64,000 bases of DNA, taken from positions 1,426,001 through 1,490,000 of the forward strand of contig NZ_CP133319.1 of assembly GCF_038811545.1 (NCBI RefSeq), in the 5' to 3' direction. Made by a program: the position numbers and the translations under genes. Below, in pieces: positions 44,811-47,615 of this stretch. The notes beneath the pieces are model-generated. The model had not been told where the DNA came from. It did no database searches and saw only the letters and a program-made list of their open reading frames with translations. This DNA comes from Rhodoligotrophos sp. CJ14. GTDB taxonomy: Bacteria; Pseudomonadota; Alphaproteobacteria; Rhizobiales; Im1. Numbering within the stretch: the stretch's first letter is position 1; each line of letters starts with the position of its first letter.

Positions 44811-45398
44811 ATGCCGGACTTTCCCATGACAAAGCAGGACACGCAGCAAGGGGCGCATATCCTCGCACCCCAAGCGATCCTCGATTTCTGGCTCAACCAG
44901 CCGCCTGAGCGCTGGTTCACCCCTGATCCGGCTTTTGATCGCGAGATTGCGGAACGTTTCGGCACAGCGCTCGAGCATGCCAAGCGCGGCGCTTACGATG
45001 CCTGGGCTGAGACAGCCGAGGGCGCGCTCGCCCTCATCATTCTCCTCGACCAATTCTCGCGCAACATCCATCGCGGGACAGCAGCGATGTTCGCGGCCGA
45101 TGCGAAGGCACTCGCAGTGGCCAAGCATATGGTCGCCGCCGGCCAGGACCTCGCCCTACCGGTCGATTTGCGCTCCTGGGTCTATCTTCCCTTCATGCAT
45201 TCCGAGGCTCTGGCCGATCAGGACGCCTGCATCGCCTTATCCGCCAGATCTGGCCTAGAGGACAGCCTCCACTGGGCGCAGGTACATGCGGACATCATCC
45301 GTCGCTTCGGCCGCTTTCCCCATCGCAATCCCTTGCTCGGCCGTGAAATGACCGAGGACGAGCAGCGCTTTCTGGACGAGGGCGGGTTCAGCGGCTGA
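44811..45398 (+). CDS. DUF924-family protein
   Basis: A 195-residue soluble, mainly helical protein. The family marks are AILDFWLNQPPERWF near the start, LIILLDQFSRNIHRGTAAMF, YLPFMHSEALADQ and FGRFPHRNPLLGR. DUF924 proteins have a TPR-like helical fold; their role is not established. AAGG seven bases before ATG 44811 supports this start. It follows rpmF but is separated by a terminator. Confidence 0.9.
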   Translation: MPDFPMTKQDTQQGAHILAPQAILDFWLNQPPERWFTPDPAFDREIAERFGTALEHAKRGAYDAWAETAEGALALIILLDQFSRNIHRGTAAMFAADAKALAVAKHMVAAGQDLALPVDLRSWVYLPFMHSEALADQDACIALSARSGLEDSLHWAQVHADIIRRFGRFPHRNPLLGREMTEDEQRFLDEGGFSG

Positions 45399-45547
45399 GC
45401 GGGATCGCGGCGCTCCTGTCCCGGCGGCATCGCCTTAAGCTGCCCCTGTCTTAAATTGGTAAACTCTCCACCCCCGGTTGGCCCGTTCTTTGCTCCAATG
45501 TGCCCGATGGCTGGATCAGCGATCTGATCCGCCCCGAGTTGGCACGC

Positions 45548-46699
45548 ATGACCTACGTATCGAAACTCGACATTGTCACAAGAGCCCGTCGGAGCACGGG
45601 GCTCGACGATGCCGCGCAGGCTGCCCTTTCGGCAGCGGAATGGGCAGCGCTGACCAATTCGGCCGTCGAGGCCAGCATCACCGCCGACCCTGCCTGGGTG
45701 CTCCCGGCCTTTCAGCAGCTCGCGCCGCGCCATCCGGCCGAGCTGGTCACCATGAAAGCCGGCCACGATCTCGCTGGCGTCGCCATTCTCGAACATACCC
45801 GTTGGCGTTGGGGCATTCCGATCAACACCTGGGTGAGCTGGTCCCACGCCCATCACTTTCTCGGCACGCCCCTGATGAATGCCCGCAGCGCCGTGCAGGG
45901 CTTCACCGATCTCATCGCCCGCGGTGATGTGATACTGCTCACGCAGATGACGCTGCAAGGCGCTGCCATGGCCGCCCTGCGCGAGGCGGCTGATGAGACC
46001 GGTGCCCGTCTCAGCGTGACCGCCGCCCATGAACGGGCCTGCTACCGGCCGGATGGCAGCTTCGCCGAGTATTTTGCAACGGCCTTTCCCCGCAAGCGCC
46101 GCAAGGAATTCCGCAGGCTTCGGGCCCGTTTGGAGGAACTTGGCACGGTGAGGTTTCGCAGCCTCTCCGCGCGCGACGACATCGCCGCCTGGTTCGACCG
46201 CTTCGAGGCCCTTGAGGCATCCGGTTGGAAGGGACGAAACCGCACCGCCATCGCCCAGGATCCGCAATCATCCCGCTTTTTTCGGGAGGTGGCGCAGCGT
46301 CTCAAGTCGGACGGTCGGCTCTTGTTCTGGGAGCTCTCCCTGGACGGCGCCCCCATCGCCATGCTCTTCGCCATGATATCCGGGACGCAAGCCTGGCTCG
46401 GCAAGATCGCCTATGACGAATCCCTGGCCCGTTTCTCGCCCGGGGTGCTGCTCATGCTCGATGTGACGGCTGAGCTCGACCGTCGTGCTGATCTGACCTT
46501 GGTCGATTCCTGTGCCGTGCCCGGCCATCCCATGATCGATCACCTCTGGCACGACCGCTTGCCGATCGGAGACGTGCTCGTAACCCCGCAAACCGTCCCC
46601 GAATGGCGCGCACGCAGCCTTCACTTGCTCGAGATCGGGCGCAACCGGACCCTCGCCGCGTGGCGATCCGCCAGGACATCCCTATTCGGGAGGAGTTGA
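45548..46699 (+). CDS. GNAT acetyltransferase-like protein (BioF2/FemAB type)
   Basis: About 383 residues of the Acetyltransf_6 (FemAB/BioF2) group, with two GNAT-like halves. The C-terminal half is best conserved: SFAEYFATAFPRKRRKEFRR, then LLFWELSLDGAPIAMLFAMI and SPGVLLMLDVTAEL. Such proteins transfer acyl or aminoacyl groups, often in exopolysaccharide or cell-wall loci. GTG 45500 is an alternative start adding 16 residues. The next gene begins two bases after its stop, so they form one unit. The substrate is unknown. Confidence 0.82.
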   Translation: MTYVSKLDIVTRARRSTGLDDAAQAALSAAEWAALTNSAVEASITADPAWVLPAFQQLAPRHPAELVTMKAGHDLAGVAILEHTRWRWGIPINTWVSWSHAHHFLGTPLMNARSAVQGFTDLIARGDVILLTQMTLQGAAMAALREAADETGARLSVTAAHERACYRPDGSFAEYFATAFPRKRRKEFRRLRARLEELGTVRFRSLSARDDIAAWFDRFEALEASGWKGRNRTAIAQDPQSSRFFREVAQRLKSDGRLLFWELSLDGAPIAMLFAMISGTQAWLGKIAYDESLARFSPGVLLMLDVTAELDRRADLTLVDSCAVPGHPMIDHLWHDRLPIGDVLVTPQTVPEWRARSLHLLEIGRNRTLAAWRSARTSLFGRS

Positions 46700-46700
46700 T

Positions 46701-47615
46701 ATGGGACATTACCTGACCCTTACGGCTGAGGAGGCGCGCGACCGGCTCCTGAAGCGCCCATTCAAGGTCAAGCATCACCTCGCGACCCATCCATTGTTCC
46801 GCCTTGAGCGGCTCATCCGTCTGGCCCAGAACCTCGATCGGGACCGAATCGAATACAATTCCGGCAAGGTGGAGATCGGTCAGCGCCCGGAGGACACGCC
46901 GCGCATCGATATGCCGCCCGCGGAGGTGATCCGCTCGATAGAGCAATGCCATGCCTGGCTCGTCATCAAGAATGTCGAGAAGGATCCCGAATATAAGAGC
47001 CTGCTTGAAGGCGTGATCGCCGACATTCGCGAAGCCGCCGGCCTCGATGCTGAAGACATGACCGACATTCGCGGCTTCGTCTTCGTGTCCTCCGCCAATT
47101 CGATCACGCCCTTCCATATCGATGGCGAGGACAACATTCTCGTCCACATCCATGGTGAGAAATTCGTCCGCGTTTTCGATAACGAGGACCGCAGCCTCGT
47201 GGGCGAAGAAGCCATGGAGATGTCGCCGGACAAGCATCGCAACCAGCCCTACCGTCCCGAATTCGAACAAAGGGCCGAGCTGTTTGAGCTCATGCCCGGC
47301 GAAGGCGTGCATATCCCCTATCTCTGGCCCCACTGGGTGGCGACCGGCTCTGCCTATTCCATTTCCATGGCCGTGACCTGGAAGAGCGCCCGTGTCATTC
47401 GCCTTAACAAGATCCGGTTCATGAACGGCGCTTTGCGGCGGCTGGGAATGCCGCAGAACCCGCCGGGACACAGCCCCGTGCTCGATAAAGCAAAGGTGGT
47501 CGCTTTCGACCTGGCCCATGGCGTCATCGAGCCTCTCCGCCGCTCGGAGCGGACGCGCCGGGTGCTCCGCCGCGTGCTGTTCGGACGAAAGGCCAACTAC
47601 TTCTACGGGAGCTGA
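46701..47615 (+). CDS. JmjC/cupin-type Fe(II)/2-oxoglutarate-like oxygenase
   Basis: A 304-residue protein with a JmjC-like cupin core. TPFHIDGEDNILVHIHG gives His139 and Asp141, and IPYLWPHWV gives the distal His211, together a full HxD...H iron site. A Lys in HGEKFVRVF could bind 2-oxoglutarate. Bacterial proteins of this type hydroxylate peptides, proteins or small metabolites. GGGAGG lies just upstream of the ATG, which follows the acetyltransferase stop by one base. The C-terminal tail is basic (RRSERTRRVLRRV). The substrate is unknown. Confidence 0.82.
   Translation: MGHYLTLTAEEARDRLLKRPFKVKHHLATHPLFRLERLIRLAQNLDRDRIEYNSGKVEIGQRPEDTPRIDMPPAEVIRSIEQCHAWLVIKNVEKDPEYKSLLEGVIADIREAAGLDAEDMTDIRGFVFVSSANSITPFHIDGEDNILVHIHGEKFVRVFDNEDRSLVGEEAMEMSPDKHRNQPYRPEFEQRAELFELMPGEGVHIPYLWPHWVATGSAYSISMAVTWKSARVIRLNKIRFMNGALRRLGMPQNPPGHSPVLDKAKVVAFDLAHGVIEPLRRSERTRRVLRRVLFGRKANYFYGS

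Follow-up and report, generated by a model that had tools for sequence, protein, structure and literature searches.

The locus and its genes

The window, a stretch of 64,000 nucleotides, carries two forward-strand genes; gene calling was done with our own program. As first described, they lie one base apart, with the first ORF ending at 46699 and the second starting at 46701. The features of the locus are as follows.

45548..46699, + strand: FemX/MprF-type tandem-GNAT acyl(aminoacyl)transferase, 383 aa, PF13480, BspF-like (Pfam, AF2, fold comparison)
46701..47615, + strand: JmjC-type Fe(II)/2-oxoglutarate oxygenase (Cupin_8), 304 aa (Pfam, AF2, fold comparison)
46688..46695, + strand: Shine-Dalgarno-like GGGAGGAG, within the end of the GNAT gene and ahead of the oxygenase start (sequence reading)
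47106..47162, + strand: T136-x2-H139-x-D141-x3-N145-x8-K154, metal ligands and presumed 2OG-binding Thr and Lys (orthologue alignment, HMMER alignment)
47331..47333, + strand: His211, third metal ligand, in a PHW motif (orthologue alignment; kept in divergent homologues too)
44811..45398, + strand: DUF924 gene, a syntenic marker for which no mechanistic part is claimed (PF06041, E 3.3e-61)

The GNAT gene starts at the ATG at 45548, with an alternative upstream GTG at 45500, and its stop codon ends at 46699. The oxygenase ORF runs from the ATG at 46701 to 47615. The window was correctly described as having no biosynthetic genes next to the pair. The DUF924 gene and an enoyl-CoA hydratase gene were considered as functional partners and set aside, as they look like synteny, while the acyl-CoA synthetase gene that adjoins many related loci is kept as a possible partner. 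A role in anti-phage defence was dropped, since neither the GNAT nor the oxygenase matched any PADLOC model.

Identity of the transferase

The first protein matched the Pfam model Acetyltransf_6 (PF13480, E 9.6e-26). Its AF2 model had a pLDDT of 91.9, with residues 1-23 disordered; the alignments behind this model and that of the oxygenase were 30-41 sequences deep. When a profile built from the GNAT alignment was run against PDB sequences it detected no relative, and relatives came from fold comparison only. The closest solved folds were those of FemX (Z 18.7-19.7 over 290-300 residues), followed by aminoacyl-tRNA-dependent peptide synthases (Z about 18.5) and the synthase domains of MprF (Z 16.1-17.4), while ordinary GNATs dropped to 13.1. 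In its predicted structure the protein is thus a tandem double GNAT of the FemABX/MprF-synthase type.

The canonical CoA motif [QR]xxGx[GA] was absent from the expected loop in 41 out of 41 GNAT homologues, where an invariant SPG takes its place. This absence may hint at an aminoacyl-tRNA donor, of which it is only suggestive. The fold shared with FemX and MprF does not fix the donor, and BspF of Brucella, to which the GNAT is related, reportedly takes acyl-CoA as donor and crotonylates host proteins. The NCBIfam BspF model (NF047385) aligned with residues 30-346 (model positions 61-388) at 151 bits, far under its curated cut-off of 775 bits, which places the GNAT outside the BspF effector family.

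Identity of the oxygenase

The second protein matched Cupin_8 (PF13621, E 1.1e-7, 32.5 bits against a cut-off of 27.4), and the Pfam JmjC and JmjC_2 models scored under their own cut-offs. Its AF2 model (pLDDT 91.4) most resembled YcfD (Z 19.0), NO66 (Z 18.3), JMJD5 (Z 16.9), YxbC (Z 16.5) and TYW5 (Z 16.1). The AF2 fold and the alignments agree with a double-stranded beta-helix that holds an HxD...H metal triad, as in JmjC-type Fe(II)/2OG oxygenases. The full iron site that had been read from the sequence, His139, Asp141 and His211, proved exact in its positions. These three residues, together with T136, N145 and K154, were invariant in 14/14 and 30/30 aligned orthologues, so that the conservation of the iron ligands, which the original prediction had named as a test, held throughout. 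The HMMER alignment matched H139, D141 and K154 with their counterparts in TYW5 and JMJD5, and K154 and T136 are the presumed 2OG-binding Lys and Thr. Judged from sequence, the metal and 2OG site is complete (T136, H139, D141, K154, H211) and the protein is a putative 2OG hydroxylase. The Pfam matches and AF2 fold comparisons therefore bear out the FemAB/GNAT and JmjC-type identities first given to the two genes.

Conservation of the pair

We surveyed 199 genomes of the GTDB order Rhizobiales, together with 80 named loci. The genomes contained 33 close oxygenase orthologues from 13 families, and the pair, the search for which in other genomes had been the other named test, is accordingly not confined to the genome of the window. 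For 32 of these 33 a same-strand GNAT gene lay upstream at a distance of up to 600 bp, and for the remaining one (G157) the distance was 679 bp. The order GNAT-oxygenase was kept in 78 of the 80 named loci; the other two end at contig ends. In Bradyrhizobium lablabi (L144) the GNAT and the oxygenase were fused into one protein of 713 aa. Since orthologous pairs occur in 13 families, the adjacency is not due to chance, and this adjacency and the fusion support the earlier suggestion that the two genes act together. That the genes are hitch-hiking neighbours with no common function is hardly credible: GNAT homologues without an oxygenase are numerous, but the linkage of oxygenase to GNAT is essentially complete among close orthologues.

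A flippase as third partner

A further gene preceded the GNAT in 22-23 of the 33 close orthologue loci and in roughly half of the 80 named loci. Pfam placed its product in the Polysacc_synt/MurJ/MatE superfamily, that of Wzx/MurJ-type flippases, and it is not a flippase of the MprF type. An earlier reading of this gene as a second GNAT was dropped in favour of the Pfam assignment, as single-linkage clustering had been misled by a fused ORF. Flippase and GNAT were fused into proteins of 875-921 aa in nine named loci (L107, L112, L117, L118, L121, L122, L124, L137 and L160), from Methylopila, Hansschlegelia, Chenggangzhangella and one genome labelled Chelatococcus. With the GNAT-oxygenase fusion, every adjacent pair of the trio is thus fused somewhere. 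A flippase also adjoined 69 of 105 GNAT homologues with E values up to 4e-26 in the order.

In the GNAT tree the trio state occurred in both main halves. The family of the window formed a pair-only clade (99% SH-aLRT) inside a mixed, mostly trio group. Several relatives have the order DUF924-flippase-GNAT-oxygenase where the window and its family have DUF924-GNAT-oxygenase, and from this order we infer a loss of the flippase gene at this site in the lineage of the window. The window's pair has no flippase beside it, and the best flippase homologues of the window genome were only 23-26% identical.

Two other neighbourhoods were recorded. The DUF924 gene (window:44811-45398) recurs upstream of the trio across families, and a convergent AMP-dependent acyl-CoA synthetase gene (acetate-CoA ligase-like) lies next to the trio in many families (L088, L106, L107, L112, L118, L125, L130 and others).

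Link to exopolysaccharide clusters

In four genomes from two other alphaproteobacterial families (L217-L220) flippase, GNAT and oxygenase formed a single block within an exopolysaccharide (EPS) cluster. In L217 and L218 the Pfam matches surrounding the trio were Wzy_C, GT4, Poly_export, Wzz/GNVR and a polysaccharide deacetylase; the clusters of both held extra GNATs and that of L218 a second Cupin_8 gene. The GT4 of this cluster gave a single strong hit per genome in 13 trio or pair genomes, and it marks the cluster in 146 of the 199 genomes of the order. It was present in 33/33 genomes with a close oxygenase (Fisher p 1.8e-5, uncorrected for relatedness) and in 117/120 genomes with the flippase (Fisher p 1e-22, likewise uncorrected for relatedness). 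The location in L217-L220 and the presence of the GT4 in every genome with the oxygenase are what would be expected of an accessory of a Wzx/Wzy pathway.

The ten GT4 clusters inspected contained Wzz/Wzc, Wza, GT4, a bacterial sugar transferase and Wzy, often with a GNAT and a deacetylase, and none contained a flippase by similarity to those of the trio. In the Hyphomicrobiales loci that were inspected, the pair had neither a recognisable glycosyltransferase gene nor a recognisable wzy as neighbour. The window genome has an EPS cluster of its own in the 456-476 kb region (GNAT, Wzz, Poly_export, GT4, WcaJ, Wzy_C), about 1 Mb from the pair and unlinked to it; its WcaJ-type Und-P glucose phosphotransferase scored 480 bits against a curated cut-off of 411. 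The simplest reading is that flippase, GNAT and oxygenase are a detached Wzx-plus-tailoring part of the GT4-marked EPS system, and the trio would then supply a candidate flippase for those EPS clusters across Hyphomicrobiales that lack one. The proposal that the pair might be a stand-alone modification system is not supported, given the Wzx-type flippase partner in relatives and the placing of the trio within an EPS cluster by other Alphaproteobacteria.

Proposed function and alternatives

The two genes stay together in a broad group of bacteria from soil and water. Since a gene for a lipid-sugar flippase usually lies ahead of the pair, the two enzymes probably modify the units from which a secreted sugar polymer is made. 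On balance we favour a role for the pair as a detached tailoring module in the pathway of an alphaproteobacterial Wzx/Wzy-dependent exopolysaccharide; the module would modify the lipid-linked repeat unit before it is flipped. At the cytoplasmic face, the GNAT would transfer an acyl or aminoacyl group to a sugar amine or hydroxyl of the repeat unit, carried probably on undecaprenyl-PP. The oxygenase would then hydroxylate the added substituent or its sugar, using Fe(II), O2 and 2-oxoglutarate. The Wzx/MurJ-type flippase, adjacent to the GNAT or fused with it in most relatives, would carry the decorated unit across the membrane, and polymerisation would fall to a Wzy encoded elsewhere. The substrate, the donor and the order of reactions in this scheme are those that we infer, and the organism of the window would presumably still use its pair for the same polymer, although no flippase lies beside it. 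Among the three substrates first put forward, peptide, lipid and polysaccharide, the comparative evidence favoured the polysaccharide and neither of the other two.

A more specific form of this scheme, which we put forward tentatively and regard as rather unlikely, is an exopolysaccharide bearing hydroxy-amino acids. Here the FemX-type transferase would use aminoacyl-tRNA on an undecaprenyl-linked sugar, the JmjC enzyme would carry out beta-hydroxylation and the MOP flippase would serve in export. Such a scheme, with flippase and transferase occasionally fused, would amount to the logic of MprF applied to polysaccharides.

The GNAT might instead aminoacylate a phospholipid from aminoacyl-tRNA, as in MprF, with the oxygenase hydroxylating the aminoacyl group and the flippase moving the lipid outward, which would change surface charge. 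The MprF synthase domains come soon after FemX among the closest folds, all 41 homologues lack the canonical CoA motif at the expected loop, and the flippase-GNAT fusions mirror the flippase-plus-GNAT layout of MprF (PMC8131360). However, the partner flippase belongs to the Wzx/MurJ (MOP) family, whose typical cargo is lipid-linked sugars, and the trio lies within an EPS cluster in other families and co-occurs with that cluster. We therefore regard phospholipid modification as unlikely.

Quite unlikely, in our assessment, is the stand-alone modification of a protein or peptide that the original prediction had in view, with the GNAT acylating and the oxygenase hydroxylating a protein. It would agree with the nearest oxygenase folds, which are hydroxylases of ribosomal and other proteins and TYW5, and with the crotonylation of host proteins reported for BspF. 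The flippase linkage, the fusions and the location in EPS clusters point instead to a lipid-linked substrate.

We judge it very unlikely that the system makes an N-acyl lipid from acyl-CoA provided by the AMP-dependent synthetase next to it. The convergent acyl-CoA synthetase (AMP-binding) gene adjoins many trio loci in several families, as well as flippase-GNAT loci that have no oxygenase. Yet it is not co-transcribed with the trio and none lies beside the pair of the window; the CoA-binding motif was not seen in the GNAT, and the position of the synthetase may reflect shared synteny only.

Comparison with known systems

No description of a set of JmjC oxygenase, GNAT and flippase was found in the literature searched. 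A close counterpart of the GNAT is HfsK of Caulobacter, a FemX-like GNAT proposed to act on the holdfast polysaccharide (PMC5362036). In both cases a FemX-like tandem GNAT is proposed for an alphaproteobacterial polysaccharide of the Wzx/Wzy type, with a deacetylase in the same pathway. Unlike the genes described here, HfsK has been described with neither a JmjC partner nor a flippase fusion (PMC5362036). MprF joins a flippase to a tandem-GNAT synthase (PMC8131360), and flippase and cytoplasmic tandem GNAT are likewise fused in some of our relatives, with the same synthase fold (Z 16-17). The present flippase is, however, MOP/Wzx-like, a JmjC oxygenase is added and the context is exopolysaccharide, so that the system is MprF-like in layout only.

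The Wzx and Wzy of the Agrobacterium UPP cluster had not been identified as of a 2014 review (PMC4018554). UPP and holdfast clusters resemble the system described here in being incomplete Wzy-type clusters with Wzx missing or distant, and our GT4/WcaJ/Wzy cluster is likened to them by layout and not equated with UPP.

BspF, a Brucella T4SS effector (NF047385), is related to the GNAT along most of the protein (151 bits), whereas the relatives found here are flippase partners in free-living bacteria, with no sign of an effector role. The findings also suggest an origin of the BspF lineage from enzymes of envelope polysaccharides, or a sister relationship with them. The analysis gives a concrete setting to a widely conserved alphaproteobacterial GNAT-oxygenase pair whose database names are blank or mislabelled after a host-directed effector.

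JmjC-type oxygenases are better known for the modification of proteins and RNA. YcfD, NO66, JMJD5, YxbC and TYW5 have the same fold as the present oxygenase and an active site of HxD...H and Lys like its own, but the characterised ones act on proteins or tRNA, while the oxygenase described here is tied by its context to lipid-linked sugars. A substituent on a lipid-linked sugar, as predicted here, would be an unusual substrate class for the fold.

Additional GNAT and Cupin_8 loci

A search of a plasmid collection with the oxygenase returned three distant matches only, and the one inspected had no annotated GNAT beside it. The window genome has a second GNAT-flippase locus at about 1.772-1.776 Mb (L196:7933-11871), where two PF13480 genes, one of them also a FemAB match, lie directly upstream of a Wzx-like flippase gene and no oxygenase is adjacent. 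This flippase is among the 23-26% identical homologues. In Chelatococcus a second, recently duplicated GNAT copy was found about 2 kb upstream of the pair (L123:5365-6609, L128:5323-6729).

A second Cupin_8 clade, about 25% identical and with the same HxD...H site, adjoins GNAT genes in several Hyphomicrobiales. Its members include L218:13148-14110, which lies in the EPS cluster, L079:9009-9998, L076:9100-10086 and L074:9756-10703. The pairing of GNAT and oxygenase has therefore arisen or split more than once. In another alphaproteobacterium (L223:7033-18001) two tandem Cupin_8 homologues have as neighbours an acyl-CoA ligase and a 2347-aa ORF that resembles polyketide/peptide synthases, which hints at a use of the oxygenase family in secondary metabolism.
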